64,000 nucleotides of DNA from Tubiluchus corallicola (lineage: Eukaryota > Priapulida > Priapulimorpha > Priapulimorphida > Tubiluchidae). A model generated the notes under the pieces. The model was not told the origin of the DNA and searched no databases. It was given only the letters and a program-made list of their open reading frames with translations. Positions 709-64,000 of this stretch are shown piece by piece. The position numbers were made by a program, and so were the translations under genes. The stretch spans positions 156,501 through 220,500 of the forward strand of contig JAQGDQ010000322.1 of NCBI GenBank assembly GCA_030141605.1, given 5' to 3'. Numbering within the stretch: position 1 is the first letter of the stretch; each line of letters starts with the position of its first letter.

Positions 709-3700
709 TTTTTTGTTACTAATTTCTTTCCGTTAATAAACTTTGTGGACGTGGAGGTTTTGCGTACTTTCATTCCTGCTGTTGAGTCTCCTCCCGTGGG
801 CCGCATACTACTTGAGCTACTGAAGAATGAGGTGAAACCGCTGTAAAATGAAAAACAAACTGCTTGAGTTACTGAAGAATGAGGTGAAACTACTGTAAAA
901 TGAAAAACAAACTGCTTGAGCAACTGAAGAATGAGGTGAAACTACTGTAAAATGAAAAACAAACTGCTTGAGCAACTGAAGAATGAGGTGAAACTGCTGT
1001 AAAATGAAAAACAAACTGCATTCAGCTACTGAAGAATGAGGTGAAACCGCTGTAAAATGAAAAACAAACTGCATTCAGCTACTGAAGAATGAGGTGAAAC
1101 CGCTGTAAAATGAAAAACAAACTGCTTGAGCTACTGAAGAATGAGGTGAAACCGCTGTAAAATGAAAAACAAACTGCTTGAGCTACTGAAGAATGAGGTG
1201 AAACCGCTGTAAAATGAAAAACAAACTGCATTCAGCTACTGAAGAATGAGGCGAAACTGCTGTAAAATGAAAAACAAACTGCTTGAACTACTGAAGAATG
1301 AGGCGAAACCGCTGTAAAATGAAAAACAAACTGCTTGAGCTACTGAAGAATGAGGTGAAACCGCCGTAAAATGAAAAACAAACTGCATTCAGCTACTGAA
1401 GAATGAGGTGAAACCGCTGTAAAATGAAAAACAAACTGCTTGAGCTACTGAAGAATGAGGTGAAACCGCTGTAAAATGAAAAACAAACTGTTTGAGCCAC
1501 TGAAGAATGAGGTGAAACCGCTGTAAAATGAAAAACAAACTGCTTGAGCTACTGAAGAATGAGGTGAAACCGCTGTAAAATGAAAAACAAACTGCATTCA
1601 ACTACTGAAGAATGAGGTGAAACCGCTGTAAAATGAAAAACAAACTGCTTGAGCTACTGAAGAATGAGGCGAAACTGCTGTAAAATGAAAAACAAACTGC
1701 TTGAGCTACTGAAGAATGAGGCGAAACCGCTGTAAAATGAAAAACAAACTGCTTGAGCTACTGAAGAATGAGGCGAAACCGCTGTAAAATGAAAAACAAA
1801 CTGCATGAGCTACTGAAGAATGAGGTGAAACCGCTGTAAAATGAAAAACAAACTGCTTGAGCTACTGAAGAATGAGGTGAAACCGCTGTAAAATGAAAAA
1901 CAAACTGCTTGAGCTACTGAAGAATGAGGTGAAACCGCTGTAAAATGAAAAACAAACTGCATTCAGCTACTGAAGAATGAGGTGAAACCGCTGTAAAATG
2001 AAAAACAAACTGCTTGAGCTACTGAAGAATGAGGTGAAACCGCTGTAAAATGAAAAACAAACTGCTTGAGCTACTGAAGAATGAGGCAAAAGTGCTGTAA
2101 AATGAAAAACAAACTGCTTGAGCTACTGAAGAATGAGGTGAAACCGCTGTAAAATGAAAAACAAACTGTTTGAGCTACTGAAGAATGAGGTGAAACCACT
2201 GTAAAATGAAAAACAAACTGCTTGAGCTACTGAAGAATGAGGTGAAACCGCTGTAAAATGAAAAACAAACTGCTTGAGCTACTGAAGAATGAGGTGAAAC
2301 CGCTGTAAAATGAAAAACAAACTGCTTGAGCTACTGAAGAATGACCTAAATGAAAAACAAACTGCATTCAGCTACTGAAGAATGAGGTGAAACTGCTGTA
2401 AAATGAAAAACAAACTGTTTGAGCTACTGAAGAATGAGGTGAAACCGCTGTAAAATGAAAAACAAACTGCTTGAGCTACTGAAGAATGAGGTGAAACCGC
2501 TGTAAAATGAAAAACAAACTGCATTCAGCTACTGAAGAATGAGGTGAAACCGCTGTAAAATGAAAAACAAACTGCTTGAGCTACTGAAGAATGACCTAAA
2601 TGAAAAACAAACTGCATTCAGCTACTGAAGAATGAGGTGAAACTGCTGTAAAATGAAAAACAAACTGCTTGAGCTACTGAAGAATGAGGTGAAACCGCTG
2701 TAAAATGAAAAACAAACTGCTTGAACTACTGAAGAATGAGGCGAAACTGCTGTAAAATGAAAAACAAACTGCATTCAGCTACTGAAGAATGAGGTGAAAC
2801 CGCTGTAAAATGAAAAACAAACTGTTTGAGCTACTGAAGAATGAGGTGAAACCGCTGTAAAATGAAAAACAAACTGCTTGAGCTACTGAAGAATGAGGTG
2901 AAACCGCTGTAAAATGAAAAACAAACTGCATTCAGCTACTGAAGAATGAGGTGAAACCGCTGTAAAATGAAAAACAAACTGCATTCAGCTACTGAAGAAT
3001 GAGGTGAAACCGCTGTAAAATGAAAAACAAACTGCTTGAGCTACTGAAGAATGACCTAAATGAAAAACAAACTGCATTCAGTTACTGAAGAATCAGGTGA
3101 AACCGCTGTAAAATGAAAAACAAACTGCATTCAGCTACTGAAGAATGAGGTGAAACCGCTGTAAAATGAAAAACAAACTGCTTGAGCTACTGAAGAATGA
3201 CCTAAATGAAAAACAAACTGCATTCAGCTACTGAAGAATGAGGTGAAACTGCTGTAAAATGAAAAACAAACTGTTTGAGCTACTGAAGAATGAGGTGAAA
3301 CCGCTGTAAAATGAAAAACCAACTGCTTGAGCTACTGAAGAATGAGGTGAAACTGCTGTAAAATGAAAAACAAACTGCTTGAGCTACTGAAGAATGAGGT
3401 GAAACCGCTGTAAAATGAAAAACAAACTTCTTGAGCTACTGAAGAATGAGGTGAAACCGCTGTAAAATGAAAAAGAAACTGCATTCAGCTACTGAAGAAT
3501 GAGGTGAAACCGCTGTAAAATGAAAAACAAACTGCATTCAGCTACTGAAGAATGAGGTGAAACCGCTGTAAAATGAAAAACAAACTGCTTGAGCTACTGA
3601 AGAATGACCTAAATGAAAAACAAACTGCATTCAGCTACTGAAGAATGAGGTGAAACTGCTGTAAAATGAAAAACAAACTGTTTGAGCTACTGAAGAATGA

Positions 3701-6700
3701 GGTGAAACCGCTGTAAAATGAAAAACCAACTGCTTGAGCTACTGAAGAATGAGGTGAAACTGCTGTAAAATGAAAAACAAACTGTTTGAGCTACTGAAGA
3801 ATGAGGTGAAACTGCTGTAAAATGAAAAACAAACTGCTTGAGCTACTGAAGAATGAGGTGAAACCGCTGTAAAATGAAAAACAAACTGCTTGAGCTACTG
3901 AAGAATGAGGTGAAACCGCTGTAAAATGAAAAAGAAACTGCATTCAGCTACTGAAGAATGAGGTGAAACCGCTGTAAAATGAAAAACAAACTGCTTGAGC
4001 TACTGAAGAATGAGGCGAAACTGCTGTAAAATGAAAAACAAACTGCATTCAGCTACTGAAGAATGAGGTGAAACCGCTGTAAAATGAAAAACAAACTGCT
4101 TGAGCTACTCTTTAATGAGGCGAAACTGCTGTAAAATGAAAAACAAACTGCTTGAGCTACTGAAGAATGAGGCGAAACTGCTGTAAAATGAAAAACAAGC
4201 TGCTTGAGCTACTGAAGAATGAGGTGAAACCGCTGTAAAATGAAAAACAAACTGCTTGAGCTACTGAAGAATGACCTAAATGAAAAACAAACTGCATTCA
4301 GCTACTGAAGAATGAGGTGAAACCGCTGTAAAATGAAAAACAAACTGCTTGAGCTACTGAAGAATGAGGTGAAACTGCTGTAAAATGAAAAACAAACTGT
4401 CTGAGCTACTGAAGAATGAGGTGAAACCGCTGTAAAATGAAAAACAAACTGCTTGAGCTACTGAAGAATGAGGTGAAACTGCTGTAAAATGAAAAACAAA
4501 CTGCTTGAGTTACTGAAGAATGAGGAGAAACTGCTGTAAAATGAAAAACAAACTGTTTGAGCTACTGAAGAATGAGGTGAAACCACTGTAAAATGAAAAA
4601 CAAACTGCTTGAGCTACTGAAGAATGAGGTGAAACCGCTGTAAAATGAAAAACAAACTGTTTGAGCTACTGAAAAATGAGGTGAAACCGCTGTAAAATGA
4701 AAAACAAACTGCTTGAGCTACTGAAGAATGAGGCGAAACCGCTGTAAAATGAAAAACAAACTGCTTGAGCTACTGAAGAATGAGGTGAAACCGCTGTAAA
4801 ATGAAAAACAAACTGCTTGAACTACTGAAGAAAAAACATTTGCTCATTCTTCATTAGTGAATGCAGTATGTTTTTTTTGGTTTTTGTGTTGGTTTGTTTT
4901 TTTTTGGTTTGTCAAACTGCTTGAACTACTGAAGAATGATGTAAATGAAAAACATACTGCATTCAGCTAATGAAGACTGAGGTGAAACTGCTGTAAAAGG
5001 AAGAGCAAATGTTTACAACAAGTGAGACGATTTTTTTCTACAAAACTTACCCAGAGCTTGCGATGGCGTCGTTTCCAAAACCGCCAAATCCGAAACTTGG
5101 ACTAGGAAATCCGAAAAAACCGGTTGTATATCGCTGGCCTGTCAATCCCACCTGATTACGATTTTGCCGACTCCGGGACGGTCGACCTGCAAACGAACGA
5201 GTTTTAAATTACAAGCATCACAACTTTCTAAAGTTCTTTTAAGCTGCTGAAATGTGAAAACGAACGGTGTTAATATAGTAAAGAGACTTAGGAATAAAAA
5301 ACTTAAAGAACAAGGCAGTATTTTGAACAAAAGGCAGAAAACAAACGGAAACAAAAAGGTAAATATCACTGTGTAACGTTCACCTTAATCACCTTCTCCA
5401 GAAAAGGACTGCTTCCTTTTCTTCTTCCAGAGAGAGTTAAAAAGAGACTAGTTATCAAACAGTGTAAACGGTACTCTGTTAATTAAACATGCACAAAATA
5501 ACGGCCATGCAAAGCAAAATTCCCGTAAGGGAAAACTTCCTGACGTGGGTAAAACTTTCGCAAACCTCTGATCATCATAACTCTGGGGAATACCAAAAAA
5601 GAGGAGAAACACAACTCATGCAAAAACTATAAATACGATTCCTTAATGTTAAAAACTTAGGAATTACTGAACTAAAGTGTTAGCAGGAACAACCACACAC
5701 TATTGTTAATATGAAATAAGCTGTAGGCAAGAATGTATAAGACCAAAAGACATTTCCGTATCTTGTTCAGTGGCGGTTGTACCTGCGTAATAATTTACGT
5801 TACGTAATAAAATAGTTAAACCACCTTGTCCATACGGATGGAACCTATCGGCGATATCCAAGTCAAAATCTGAGCCAGCTGAAATAAGCAAACACATGCT
5901 CGTTTACAAGACGGTCGCTAACGAAGCATAAATAATTGGGAAGTGGATCACAGCTGCAGGTACCGCACAACATAGGAACACGAAGGAGATGAGAAGGCGA
6001 GACGAATGAATGACTCAACAAGACGGTCGCTAACGAAGCGTAAATAATTGGGAAGTGGATCACAGCTGCAGGTACCGCACAACATAGGAACACGAAGGAG
6101 ATGAGAAAGCGAGACGAATGAATGACTCAACAAGACAAGAAAGAACTTTAATCAGTCGGATACAGCACACAATAAACAAGCCAAAAACATTCGAAGCAAA
6201 TAAAACCAGCAGTTTATTAGTTTGGGACATTCAACTGATGAAGAATAAAACTGAACAGCACAGAGTTTGCAGTCACTGCTACCACAATGCATAACCACAT
6301 CAAAATAGTAAGCATGAGGCAAACAAAAACCCAAGAATAACAGATAAGAATACAAGTAGCATGGTAAGTAAACTTGCCTGCATCCTATCAACTAGTAACG
6401 TACGATTAACATTAATAATGCAAGAATGGAAGTGCAACAATTAATGAATGTTAAAGCAGAAGATATCAGACAAGAACAAACAAACAAGCACTAAAAGAAA
6501 GACACACAATGGCATAGCAAGTGTTTGCGGCACCCAGGGGCAAAACAACTTCTGTCACGCTAACCTTTTGATGTTGATCATTTGGTTCGTGTGTGAAACC
6601 AAAAATTGTTCACACTTTCTGCATCTGTGAGCCAAACTTTTCTTTTTTGACATGATGGGACAAAGTTTAACGAATTTTTTCTGAGAATCTCCCCGAGTTT

Positions 6701-9700
6701 GATTTGTGGTACTGCAGCAGAGTAACTCTTTTCTATGCATTAGTTACGCATAACACGACAGTCACTAAACATTCAGCTCCAGCATTAAAACATGCAAAGA
6801 TTATGAAAGATACAGAACACTACAGGTTTTCATAATAATACAATCAGCATTTAGAGAAACGTCACTGTTTCTTCCAAAATTATCAATCTGCTAAACCACG
6901 TGACACCCTCAACACGCCGTTAAGTAACAACATGAATCTTTTTTCTTTTGTTGAAGTTTGAAAACTTTTGTTAATGCTGCATCTGTCATTAAGAATTAAC
7001 AGTCAATGAGAACTCCAGAAGAATTTACGCCCTCTCACCATTAACCCGGGTGCGATCGCCCCTCTCGTGCCCACCTTGCTACCCCTCTGACGACACAACA
7101 AAAACAACAGAACACGACTGTTGCAACGCAATGAAACGCAAGAATGAGACAAACCGTTTCCACAAGCAAATCTAATGCATAAGAACATAGAAAAGCTGAC
7201 AACACTGTGATCATAAGAATTACGATCGGGTGAAAGCGGGCTGCATGGAAAAATCCCACAAACAACAAAACAGGCAACATTTAAAACTTCAAGTTTAAGA
7301 TGTATAAACACTACATAATATAAGGCATTTCAATGATAAAAGCTAATGAAATGATCCGATGAAATCATGCTAAAAGCATGCTGTTAATATTCATTATATA
7401 AAATTATTAATAAAACTTCCACTCATGTAAAAATGTGACAAATTCAAAAACAGCAGCAACAACAACAACAGCAAAAACATCACATTTCTTTAAATTACAG
7501 TCTAGCCTCGTTATGCCGCCACCCTCGCCACGTCATGCTAGGATGAGTGCTTATGTAAACTATATTCGTTATGTCGCCAAACAGACAAACTCAGAGGTGA
7601 ATCGATCAATACATATACTGCGTGTCGATCAATATAACCGCGGTATGTAGACAATGCTGCTGTACTTGGTTAATGCGTAGAGAAACTAAAGTGCCAAAGC
7701 TGCGTTTAAGTTTGAGTTCCCACAAAGTGTGAGCAAATTTACATGATGTCTCTGAAGCGAAAACTGTTTTGTCTTAATCCTGAACAAAAAAAAAGGAAAT
7801 TTGTATTTATCATACGAATAATTCTTCAAAGACACAGCAGGAAATTGCTACTGTATTTAGTGCGAAATTTGGTGACACTGTTAGCCGGAGAACTGTAGGA
7901 GATATAATAGCGAGTAAAGAAAAATGGATGCAAAGTCATGGTCACAGTGGCTCAACGAAATTGCGACGTGGACAGCATTCCAATCTGGACATGGCACTTC
8001 AGCTATGGTTCACGACTGCACGATCGCAAAATGTCGTCATCACTCATTCTAAGATTATTTTTATGACATTTTTTCATTTCTGATTTAATGTTGATTGGTA
8101 TCGTAATGCGGAATATATTTTATATGTACATAGAGGAACACTATGTTAATCAACTATTATGTACAGTATGTATATACATATAGACTAACTTCGTTATGTT
8201 CCCATTATCTCGCCATACTCGCCTCTCGCCAAAAATTTGCCCTAGACGGACAGTGGCGAGATAACGAGGTTAGACTGTAAGTATGAAAACACGTTACACT
8301 TACAGCAGTCAAAGGTGAAAAATGCAACACACCACACGAAACTTACTAATATCGGCAAAGAAGTCTGCAAATGGGTCTCGCCCGCCGAAAAATTCCCTAA
8401 AAACTTCTTCCGGATCTCTGAACGTGAAACCTCCGTGGAAAGTACCAAAATGGAAGCCAGCAAGATCATCGAATGCCGAACTGGTAGTTCCAGCTCCGTT
8501 GATTAGTCCCTCCTTGCCGTACCTGTCGTATATTTTACGCTTCTCTTCTATATAACACAAATACATAAAACTTAAAGCAAAACCGGACCCAATTCTAAAC
8601 TGGAGGTTAAAACAATTTACCTTGTAAAATATTGAAAGGAAACGCAGTATTTTTTTAAAGAATGACTGGTGTGAATATGAATTATTACCACACGAAAGTA
8701 ATTTCGTGTTCCTGCGGCTAGGTCTTTACCATTTTCGTCATTCGTTAGTTAGATGGGTATTAGTGCCCGCATTTCGGAACATGATGGATGAAAAACGGGT
8801 GCTGTACCTTTCACTACAGACGTGTTCTTTTGTGACATAATACACACATGCATGGGCACAGGAGTAAATTTAAAATTTCAGTTTTTATCTCAGAACTTGT
8901 GGAATTTTTGTACATTACACTGAATGTTACACGTTAGCACTGTACTTCAATATTTGCCTTTGCAAACACATGCAACACGTTCGTGGAATGTTTGTGCTGT
9001 TTAAAAATTATGTTCATTCATGATGTCATCAACAGCTGGACTCACTCGCTGATAATAAAGTTTTTAACCTATCATTTCATCATCAGAAATGCTTTGCAAT
9101 TACTACATGTGCTAACATGTACACATTTTACCCAATTTACCAAACTCAAAAATGGGGTAGGACATGAAAATCATACTCAAAAATGGCGTAGGACATGAAA
9201 ATCATACTCAAAAATGGTGTAGGACATGAAAATCATACTCAAAAATGGGGTAGGACATGAAAATCATACTCAAAAATGGTGTAGGACATGAAAATCATAC
9301 TCAAAAATGGGGTAGGACATGAAAATCATACTCAAAAATGGGGTAGGACATGAAAAATCATACTCAGAAATGGGGTAGGACATGAAAAATCATACTCAAG
9401 AATGGGGTAGGACATGAAAATCATACTCAAAAATGGGGTAGGACATGAAAAATCATACTCAAAAATGGGGTAGGACATGAAAATCATACTCAAAAATGGG
9501 GTAGGACATGAAAATCATACTCAAAAATGGTGTAGGACATGAAAATCATACTCAAAAATGGGGTAGGACATGAAAAATCATACTCAAAAATGGGGTAGGA
9601 CATGAAAATCATACTCAAAAATGGGGTAGGACATGAAAAATCATACTCAAAAATGGGGTAGGACATGAAAATCATACTCAAAAATGGGGTAGGACATGAA

Positions 9701-10997
9701 AATCATACTCAAAAATGGGGTAGGACATGAAAATCATACTCAAAAATGGGGTAGGACATGAAACTCATACTCAAAAATGGGGTAGGACATGAAAATCATA
9801 CTCAAAAATGGGTATGATTGAGTCTGTATACTCATACACATACTCATACTCTGTAAATTTTAGCCATTTTAGGTATTTAACACACCAAGACGTAGCAATA
9901 TTTCAGCAGAACTTAGACGTTCCAGTATTATTGAAATAACTATTGCATCACTTTGCCTACAACATTTTACTTTTAAAAACCTAGTTTGCTGTTCTGTTAT
10001 CAACTTTGATCTTCACAAACTTTGCTGTGAATTCGTTTATTTTAAGTAAATACAATTTCATCTTACTGTCTGAAAGGACTTCGTAAGCTTCAGATATCTG
10101 TTTAAATTTTCTCTCAGCTTCTTCTTTCTTTGTGGGATTTTTATCTGGGTGCCACTTTAGTGCGAGCTTGCGATACCTAGAAAAAAAATCAATATTCATG
10201 TTAACAAAACCCCGAGCAAACTGGCAAAAATCAACTTCCCGTTCAACAAGCAACGTAAGAAGAATCTTAATGTCATTATCCGGAAAGCCAATGCAAAATT
10301 TGTAGAAAACTTCCACTGGTGATAGATTTACAGACCTGGAAGCTTCCAGATTTTTCAATTTGTAAACATTTCAACTAAGACTATAAAAACGTCACACTCG
10401 AAGTTCCGCGGTATAGCCAACATCATAAATTTACCTTCTATTTAAAAACTTATGTAGTTTTAAGCAATAAGAAACTGCTGGCAGTCTGAAACCAATGAAA
10501 CAGAACATAGACAGGCATCTGATTATTTTCATACCTTGAAGGGCAAGCAAAAGTTAAAAATTTCGCAGCTTTGAAACACCAAGTAAAAACTGCAAAACTT
10601 GACTGCCAATTAATGAAGAAGCCAGTTGCTAACAGCACGGATTTAACGCTCGTGTTTTCAAATAGTTCTTGTAAAGCAACAAACCATTTGTTACAATTTG
10701 TTGAGTCTGAACCGTGCTTTTAGATCAAACAAGTAACAAATACACCACGAGTTAGACAACGTGCACAAAAAGGAGCTGAAAAATACGCTTTTTTACCGCT
10801 TGCTCGGTGGCATCTCTCTTCACCTCCAAGATGTCGTAATAATTGCTCAATGTCACTGCTTACTGCATTGCCTTATCCACTGTGCTACGAACACTTGTAT
10901 ACTTACTAATAATTAAGAATACTTACGCTTTTTTTATTTCTTGCTCGGTGGCGTCTCTCTTCACCTCCAAGACGTCGTAATAATCGGTCATTGTCAT
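709..10997 (-). CDS. DNAJB6: DNAJB6-like HSP40 co-chaperone (3' end off the left edge)
   Basis: Class B J-domain protein that stimulates HSP70 and, in the DNAJB6/B2 group, suppresses protein aggregation. Exons on the minus strand: 10997-10927, 10176-10067, 8547-8347, 5186-5051, 840-709; lengths 71, 110, 201, 136 and 132 nt join in phase (216 codons so far). Exon 1 begins [20 protein letters not shown], helix I of the J domain. Exon 2 has the HPD loop (KWHPDKN) and [12 protein letters not shown]. Exon 3 has YDRYGKEGL, a Gly/Phe-rich part and [13 protein letters not shown]. Exons 4-5 hold the F/S/G-rich region ([27 protein letters not shown]) and [16 protein letters not shown], which matches the human DNAJB6 segment STSTKMVNGRKITTKR. 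The donor after exon 5 (AAAAAA|GTAAGT) shows that coding continues left of the window; I could not find the next exon in 1-700. The downstream of the two adjacent ATGs fits the family length equally well. DNAJB2/B7/B8 are alternatives within the same group. Confidence 0.9.
811..4830. repeat. 52-53 bp minisatellite, roughly 75 copies, in DNAJB6 intron 4
   Basis: The plus-strand unit contains CTACTGAAGAATGAGGTGAA, then ACCGCTGTAAAATGAAAAAC, then AAACTGCTTGAG. A CATTCAG variant makes 53 bp units. A recurrent shorter form, GAATGACCTAAATG (for example near 2340, 2590, 3050, 3200, 3606, 4270), drops about 12 bp. Read on the gene's coding strand, each full unit contains a pyrimidine-rich TTTTTCATTTTACAG acceptor followed by CGGTTTCACCTCATTCTTC, the start of exon 5. 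The first unit overlaps exon 5 itself (to 840), so exon and array share one origin. Beyond 4830 a few diverged units run to about 5000. The short ORFs in the array on the minus strand are repeat translations, not genes. Confidence 0.97.
5907..6134. repeat. Two-copy tandem repeat of about 112-116 bp
   Basis: The segment starting ACAAGACGGTCGCTAACGAA occurs at about 5906 and again at about 6020. Both copies include GGGAAGTGGATCACAGCTGC and end in GACGAATGAATGACTCAACA. The copies are nearly identical, so the duplication is recent. It lies in DNAJB6 intron 3 and the ORFs across it show no family resemblance. Confidence 0.9.
7498..8277 (+). mobile_element. Tigger/pogo-type DNA transposon remnant with CENP-B-like DNA-binding fragment
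   Basis: Terminal inverted repeats start CAGTCTAGCCTCGTTATG on the left. The right end is the reverse complement of CAGTCTAACCTCGTTATCTC. Both are flanked by TA, the Tc1/mariner/pogo target duplication. Between them, the segment at about 7820-8040 reads, with one frame change, [18 protein letters not shown], then [16 protein letters not shown], then [13 protein letters not shown]. This is the CENP-B-type N-terminal helix-turn-helix pair of Tigger transposases. The DDE catalytic domain is absent, so it is an internally deleted, non-autonomous copy. It sits in DNAJB6 intron 3. Confidence 0.85.
9148..9815. repeat. 30-31 bp minisatellite, about 22 copies, in DNAJB6 intron 2
   Basis: The unit is AAAATGGGGTAGGACATGAA followed by AATCATACTC. 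Variation is slight: GGGG or GTGT near the middle, and four or five A after CATG. The near identity of the units points to recent expansion or homogenisation. The ORFs on both strands here are repeat translations. Confidence 0.97.
10783..10870 (-). pseudogene. Decayed tandem duplicate of DNAJB6-like exon 1
   Basis: About 130 bp downstream of exon 1, inside intron 1, the minus strand repeats exon 1 almost base for base: it reads [15 protein letters not shown] against [15 protein letters not shown] in the real exon. Similarity also covers the 5' leader (AGTAAGCA before the start) and the donor. Both start codons are gone (ATG ACA ATG has become GTG ACA TTG). One A is missing from the lysine run, which shifts the frame relative to the donor, and the donor has weakened from GTAAGT to GTATTT. 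The original is therefore 10920-11010 and this is an inactive copy. An untested alternative is a remnant alternative first exon. Confidence 0.8.
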
Positions 10998-25919: not shown

Positions 25920-26630
25920 ATTTACAGACAGGTAAGGTGTTGTGGCAACCCCATGATGCTGAGGTAAAATAAACACACAGCACAATGGTTACATAATATT
26001 GCCACAAATTTACAGACAGGTGAGGTGTTGTGGCAACCTCATGTTGTTGAGATACAATAAACACACAGCACAATGGTTACATATTAATGCCACAAATTTA
26101 TAGACAGGTAAGGTGTTGTGGCAACCTCATGATGCTGAGATACAATAAACACTCAGCACAATAGTTACATATTAATGCCACAAGTTTACAGACAGGTAAG
26201 GTGTTGTGGCAACCTCATGATGCAGAGGTACAATAAACACACAGCACAATAGTTACATATTAATGCCACAAATTTACAGACAGGTAAGGTGCTGTGGCAA
26301 CCTCATGATGCTGAGGTACAATAAACACACAGCACAATTGTTACATATTAATGCCACACGTTTACAGACAGGTAAGATGTTGTGGCAACCCCATGATGCT
26401 GAGGTAAAATAAACACACAGCACAATGGTTACATATTAATGCCACAAATTTTCAGACAGGTAAGGTGTTGTGGCAACCTCATGATGCTGAGGTACAATAA
26501 ACACACAGCACAATAGTTACATAATAATGCCACAAATTTACAAACAGGTAAGGTGTTGTGGCAACTGCATGATGCTGAGGTACAATAAACACTCAGCACA
26601 ATGGTTACATATTAATGCCTCAAATTTCAA
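25920..26630. repeat. 88 bp minisatellite, about 8 copies
   Basis: The unit contains ACAGACAGGTAAGGTGTTGT, GGCAACCTCATGATGCTGAG, GTACAATAAACACACAGCAC and TTACATATTAATGCCACAAA. Each unit carries AATAAA and a donor-like CAGGTAAGG on the plus strand. No gene is recognised here. Confidence 0.93.
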
Positions 26631-62699: not shown

Positions 62700-64000
62700 G
62701 ATGTTAAGGGAAAGAACGAGTCACTCAGTATGTTGGGTTTATTTTACTGTTGTCACTTAAACTGTTTGTGGTGTGCTAGAGGAAAGAACGAGTCACTCAG
62801 TATGTTGTGTTTATTTTGCTGTTATCACTTAAACTGTTTGTGGTGTGCTAGAGGAAAGAACAAATCACTCAGTATGTTGGGTTTATTTTACTGTTATCAC
62901 TTAAACTGTTTGTGGTGTGCTAGAGGAAAGAACGAGTCACTCAGTATGTTGTGTTTATTTTGCTGTTATCACTTAAACTGTTTGTGGTGTGCTGAAGGAA
63001 AGAACGAGTCACTCGGTGTGTTGGGTTTATTTTACTGTTATCACTTAAACTGTTTGTGGTGTGCTAGAGGAAAGAACAAGTCACACAGTATGTTGGGTTT
63101 ATTTTACTGTTATCACTTAAACTGTTTGTGGTGTGTTAAAGGAAAGAACATGTTACTCAGTATGTTGGGTTTATTTTACTGTTGTCACTTAAACTGTTTG
63201 TGGTGTGCTAGAGGAAAGAACAAGTCACACAGTATGTTGGGTTTATTTTACTGTTGTCACTTAAACTGTTTGTGGTGTGTTAAAGGAAAGAACAAGTCAC
63301 TCAGTATGTTGGGTTTATTTTACTGTTGTCACTTAAACTGTTTGTGGTGTGTTAAAGGAAAGAACAAGTCACTCAGCATGTTGGGTTTATTTTACTGTTG
63401 TCACTTAAACTGTTTGTGGTGTGCTAGAGGAAAGAACGAGTCACTCAGTATGTTGTGTTTATTTTACTGTTGTCACTTAAACTGTTTGTGGTGTGCTAGA
63501 GGAAAGAACAAGTCACTCAGTATGTTGGGTTTATTTTACTGTTGTCACTTAAACTGTTTGTGGTGTGCTAGAGGAAAGAACAAGTCACACAGTATGTTGG
63601 GTTTATTTTACTGTTGTCACTTAAACTGTTTGTGGTGTGCTAGAGGAAAGAACAAGTCTCTCAGTGTGTTGTGTTTATTTTACTGTTGTCACTTAAACTG
63701 TTTGTGGTGTGCTAGAGGAAAGAACAAGTCGCTCAGTATGTTGGGTTTATTTTACTGTTGTCACTTGAACTGTTTGTGGTGTGCTAGAGGAAAGAACAAG
63801 TCACTCAGTATGTTGGGTTTATTTTACTGTTGTCACTTAAACTGTTTGTGGTGTGCTCGAGGAAAGAACAAACTCAGTATGTTGGGTTTATTTTACTGTT
63901 GTCACTTAAACTGTTTGTGGTGTGTTAAAGGAAAGAACAAGTCACTCAGCATGTTGGGTTTATTTTACTGTTGTCACTTAAACTGTTTGTGGTGTGCTAG
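62700..64000. repeat. 72 bp minisatellite, at least 18 copies, PRPF4 intron 3, cut by the window end
   Basis: The unit contains GAGGAAAGAACGAGTCACTC, AGTATGTTGGGTTTATTTTA, CTGTTGTCACTTAAACTGTT and TGTGGTGTGCTA. Variants alternate AACGAG/AACAAG and GCTAGAG/GTTAAAG. The array runs out of the window, so its true length is unknown. Confidence 0.97.

Follow-up and report, generated by a model that had tools for sequence, protein, structure and literature searches.

How is a 3' splice site chosen when the intron that it closes is filled with copies of it? This question is raised by a DNAJB6-type gene on the minus strand of the 64,000-nt stretch of Tubiluchus corallicola DNA analysed here (hereafter the window). 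In splice motifs below, a slash marks the junction.

The gene and its minisatellite

The gene has 6 exons and, once spliced, encodes 248 amino acids in an uninterrupted frame (Table 1). The gene model was guided by the human DNAJB6 sequence, with 9 kb beyond the window start added, and consensus junctions together with an intact 248-aa frame were obtained only with the acceptor at 842-841. Searched against the PDB, the spliced protein is closest to human DNAJB6 (6u3r, E 4e-57), over residues 1-124 and 195-244, which include both the J domain and the C-terminal domain. A J domain, a G/F linker, an S/T-rich part and a C-terminal domain of the STSTK..NGRK type, as in a DNAJB6 class B J-protein, are all present. 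Intron 4 splits a Gly codon in phase 2, directly ahead of the residues that correspond to human GLTSFSSTS. These belong to the S/T-rich region, which amyloid suppression by DNAJB6 requires according to two papers (PMC5979959, PMC7294096). A retrocopy that could bear witness to past splicing was looked for, and no near-identical paralogue was found in the genome: the best matches among other J-proteins are 57-61% identical over the N-terminal part only, and the two best of these loci proved, when read, to be DNAJB1-like. The gene appears to be the only DNAJB6 of this genome and, being apparently single-copy, must for the most part be spliced correctly. A decayed tandem copy of exon 1 lies just downstream of that exon (10788-10844, minus strand) and has neither ATG nor GT donor.

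Table 1. Features of the DNAJB6-type gene and of its intron 4 array, in window positions.
Feature	Coordinates	Strand	Basis
Exon 1, coding part	10927..10991	-	gene model
Exon 2, J domain	10067..10176	-	gene model
Exon 3, end of J domain and G/F region	8347..8547	-	gene model
Exon 4, G/F-rich linker, donor GG/GTAAGT	5051..5186	-	gene model
Intron 4, 4,210 bp, phase 2, minisatellite almost throughout	841..5050	-	gene model
Exon 5, 132 nt, donor GTAAGT after 709	709..840	-	gene model
Last exon (exon 6), its start 1,638 bases ahead of window position 0		-	gene model
True exon 5 acceptor AG; none of the other 77 gives the full-length protein	841..842	-	
52-bp minisatellite; successive acceptors delimit 77 tandem units, with 31 distinct unit sequences	807..4832	-	
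Inverted, internally deleted fragment of the putatively oldest unit; complementarity of arms I2-I4 reaching 100% over 18 nt	4834..4875	+	
Degenerate, putatively oldest units at the exon 4 end, exon-like junction AGTATG kept	4925..4990	-	
Divergent acceptor AG at the distal extreme (CTCTTCCTTTTACAG/CAGTTTCACC), exon 4 donor 60 nt away	4991..4992	-	

TRF describes the array as 78.4 copies of period 52 with 91% matches. On the minus strand the unit reads CGGTTTCACCTCATTCTTCAGTAGCTCAAGCAGTTTGTTTTTCATTTTACAG and joins about 37 nt of the start of exon 5 to about 15 nt of the intron end, the exon-like CGGTTTCACCTCATTCTTCAGTAGCTCAAGCAGTTTG being followed by TTTTTCATTTTACAG. The intron has 71 exact copies of this 15-mer where base composition predicts 0.0001, so that chance is not an issue. 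Most units measure 52 nt (50 units) or 53 nt (15 units), and six 50/43 pairs complete the series. The array runs into exon 5, whose start carries the same CGGTTTCACCTCATTCTTCAGTAGCTCAAG(T)AGT as the units, and the final copy of the unit, a coding one, makes up the first 33 nt or so of the exon. The sequence-only reading had proposed a minisatellite built from a splice acceptor and the start of exon 5 of a DNAJB6-type gene, and beginning inside that exon; TRF, the unit structure and the PDB match agree with it, and exon 5 (840-709) indeed opens with the letters of the unit.

The six shortened units, with TTTAG/GTCATTC (2345-4275), recur beside the same neighbours, a pattern that may point to duplications of several units at a time within the array. 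Misassembly is common in large repeats, and a single assembled copy is present here, a second haplotype not having been found in the genome; the copy number or order could accordingly be an artefact of a shorter (or longer) array. We regard this as quite unlikely, given that the window contains no N, that unique gene sequence anchors the array on both sides, and that the 31 unit types are accompanied by distinct end units.

Minisatellites (period of at least 10) account for 16.6% of the window, compared with 1.5% in twelve 10-kb pieces sampled from the same genome. The region itself is therefore array-rich, and genome-wide abundance of arrays, at 1.5% of 120 sampled kb, was rejected as an explanation. 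An 88-bp array at 25920-26627 (plus strand) has a unit with TTTACAGACAG/GTAAGG, an acceptor-like site and a good donor-like one; no neighbouring exon was recognised for it, nor was overlap with an exon evident at a glance for the other arrays of the window. A 72-bp array of 18 copies (62709-64000, plus strand) runs off the window, is open in one frame (a 465-aa ORF of 24-residue repeats) and has AAACTG(C/T)TTGTGGTGTG in common with a 41-bp array in L013 (7523-7664).

Seventy-eight acceptors and one protein

Intron 4 contains 78 acceptor-like AGs, the true one included; the earlier estimate of about 75 decoys thus comes close to the 77 counted. Seventy-two of the 78 read TTTTACAG, the divergent distal copy (AG 4992-4991) among them, and the other six, in the shortened units, read TTTAG/G. 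Every unit has its own polypyrimidine tract and AG; one further unit, at 1364, has no AG (TTTTACGG). Over positions -19 to +3, 45 acceptors are identical to the true site, which is one of them, the other 44 being decoys. Pyrimidines occupy 13 of 16 positions in the unit acceptors versus 10-12 of 16 in the other acceptors of the gene. As the unit acceptors equal or exceed these in pyrimidines, strength cannot single out the true site.

All 78 possible joins of exon 4 to an acceptor were translated. Full-length protein results only from the join to 840, and the 77 others stop after 4-61 new residues, their stops preceding the exon 5/6 junction by 108-4,254 nt. All these stops lie more than 50 nt before the last exon junction, as in the usual 50-nt rule for nonsense-mediated decay (NMD), and by that rule decoy-spliced mRNAs would be fit for NMD. 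The in-frame stops are the TAG of TTCAGTAG and the TGA of GCTGAATG. Since one of them is met within a few units in every run, unit length modulo 3 is irrelevant, and the 26 decoys that add a multiple of three also lead to a premature stop. The sequence-only reading had expected a frame shift or added F/S-rich codons, depending on the unit; this did not hold, as 77 of 77 decoys stop whatever the frame. The array might still be thought to yield alternative proteins with longer or shorter F/S-rich segments, because the units encode, in one frame, peptides like the F/S-rich start of exon 5. Every such product would lose the C-terminal domain, leaving at best a truncated J-domain protein if its mRNA escaped decay, and we hold this reading to be extremely unlikely. 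With a premature stop behind all 77 decoys, lost output is expected and not an altered F/S-rich chaperone: decoy use would lower the dose and leave the S/T-rich linker unaltered, as judged from the translated joins.

What is unique to the true acceptor is the exon 5 donor 132 nt downstream. No good 5' splice site was found in the units, only sites of the TCA/GTAGCT and GCG/GTTTCA types, which makes the decoys poor candidates for cassette exons; recursive splicing was rejected on the ground that the units have no AG/GTRAGT site. The remaining introns of the gene, calculated from the exon coordinates, span 750-3,160 nt, a range in which exon definition would favour the true site. Choice would then fall on the acceptor closest to the exon 5 donor GTAAGT, with the array removed as one long intron, while accidental use of an upstream copy would lead to one of the translated stops and probably to NMD. 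The greatest threat to correct site choice is the distal acceptor (4992-4991), only 60 nt from the exon 4 donor. Intron definition could act on the resulting 60-nt intron, in which case this acceptor would win.

Boundary-spanning repeats and the question of dose

In amphioxus, tandem repeats over an intron/exon boundary, a rare kind of repeat, received the name "mirages" at Adh3; further cases were then described in TnC, globins (BflGb6, BflGb9) and PGBD5, and the papers concerned report undisturbed splicing and normal mRNAs (PMC3087553, PMC3902484). The amphioxus globin paper describes repetition of the 3' intron end and a 5' exon part, with regular splicing and with haplotypes of 6 and 3 units, and cites somatic instability of Adh3. 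The layout of BflGb6, where the 3' end of an intron and the 5' part of the next exon are repeated, is exactly that of the array described here, and in both cases the units carry splice signals. The two differ in copies (about 78 versus 3-6 in BflGb6), and here the unit has 52 bp and the host gene is of the DNAJB6 type. As in a mirage, the unit holds the intron end and exon start of its host gene, and the array adjoins an authentic exon of an intact frame. Amphioxus genomes possess GFP genes and have about 41% GC. In the genome studied here, GC is 0.36, lying between 0.33 and 0.37 in 11 of 12 samples, and GFP, innexin, cuticle and haemocyanin families were not found, nor was a COX1 hit, in weak searches run without a positive control. 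The array is a very large new example of a mirage, probably outside amphioxus.

Human genes provide further comparisons. In CBS, the 844ins68 allele duplicates the intron 7/exon 8 junction (68 bp), and the downstream copy is strongly preferred, with normal mRNA (PMC2630376, whose wording is 'donor', the work that it cites concerning 3' splice-site selection). Here too an acceptor and an exon start are duplicated, but only once, with no expanded array; by analogy, the duplicated CBS acceptor behaves as exon definition would predict for the DNAJB6 array. The same gene carries a 31-bp VNTR (c.1444_1467+7, 16-21 copies), for which a link with enzyme activity is reported (Lievers 2001, as cited in PMC2630376); it is likewise a tandem repeat across an exon/intron boundary, but covers the donor side. 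Minisatellites at exon-intron boundaries are also described from human segmental duplications, as variable internal tandem repeats that alter splicing or the length of the intron (PMC2812944). Unlike the present array, they average about 4 copies of 30 bp and lie in recently duplicated primate genes.

Could the decoys nevertheless serve to control dose, by diverting a copy-number-dependent fraction of DNAJB6 pre-mRNA into NMD, with array length tuning the chaperone level? Of the 77 decoys, 44 share the sequence of the true site over -19 to +3, and an NMD-type transcript is predicted for every decoy join; both points are in keeping with this idea, as is an acceptor core that hardly varies. Among 65 units of 52-53 nt, 1 of 15 columns is variable in the acceptor core versus 19 of 37 in the exon-derived part (Fisher p 0.004; p 0.0085 when stratified by A/T vs C/G), a comparison between units that arose by copying from each other, and one that includes a T-rich tract with a possibly different mutation pattern. 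For these two reasons we treat the low variability as a hint only; it would speak against selection to disable the decoys. It also counts against a by-product, in that decoys free of selection, or selected against, would most simply be expected to behave otherwise. The nearly invariant core may be explained by a mutation bias of the T-rich tract or by units spreading through duplication. Amphioxus mirages, on the other hand, are reported without aberrant mRNA, and we consider dose control unlikely. Its strongest form, in which some 77 near-identical decoys are kept intact to set the dose of this anti-aggregation chaperone through decoy splicing and NMD, array length acting as a heritable, perhaps somatically changing dial, seems to us very unlikely.

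Origin and meaning of the array

Unit DNA was found at this locus only in a search of the 343.5-Mb genome, which argues that it arose in place; a dispersed repeat or transposon was rejected as its source for the same reason. The boundary structure, the old junction in the distal unit and the shared unit variants provide the observed basis for a history. The array would have been founded when a short segment spanning the end of intron 4 and the start of exon 5 was duplicated in tandem, joining exon ...AGTATG to intron TTTTTCATTTTACAG (37 + 15 = 52 nt). The most divergent unit is the most distal one and retains the junction AGTATG/TTTTTC, in which AGTATG is the true continuation of exon 5 (CAAGTAGTATGCGG), as fits such a founding event. 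Amplification of the 52-bp unit, presumably by replication slippage or unequal exchange, would have followed, and the junction AGTATG would later have been homogenised to AGTTTG. The copy beside the exon 5 donor would have remained the real exon start, everything upstream turning into intron. The distal acceptor is a candidate for the original intron end, and before amplification the intron may have measured only 60 nt.

We therefore think it likely that the array is a local, slippage-grown by-product of the mirage type that is tolerated, exon definition picking the acceptor beside the exon 5 donor. As such it would have at most a small expression cost, which could grow with copy number. The structure is real and striking yet explicable, namely a mirage of very large size in a chaperone gene that is apparently single-copy, and the functional prediction is mostly one of lost output without new protein forms. 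An intron has been lengthened to 4 kb through amplification of its own end. The locus also suggests that mirages, so far known from amphioxus, occur in other animals and can reach about 78 copies. For the study of how a 3' splice site is selected, it is a natural experiment of unusual clarity: a single intron offers 78 acceptors, of which 45 share the sequence around the site and one alone makes the protein.
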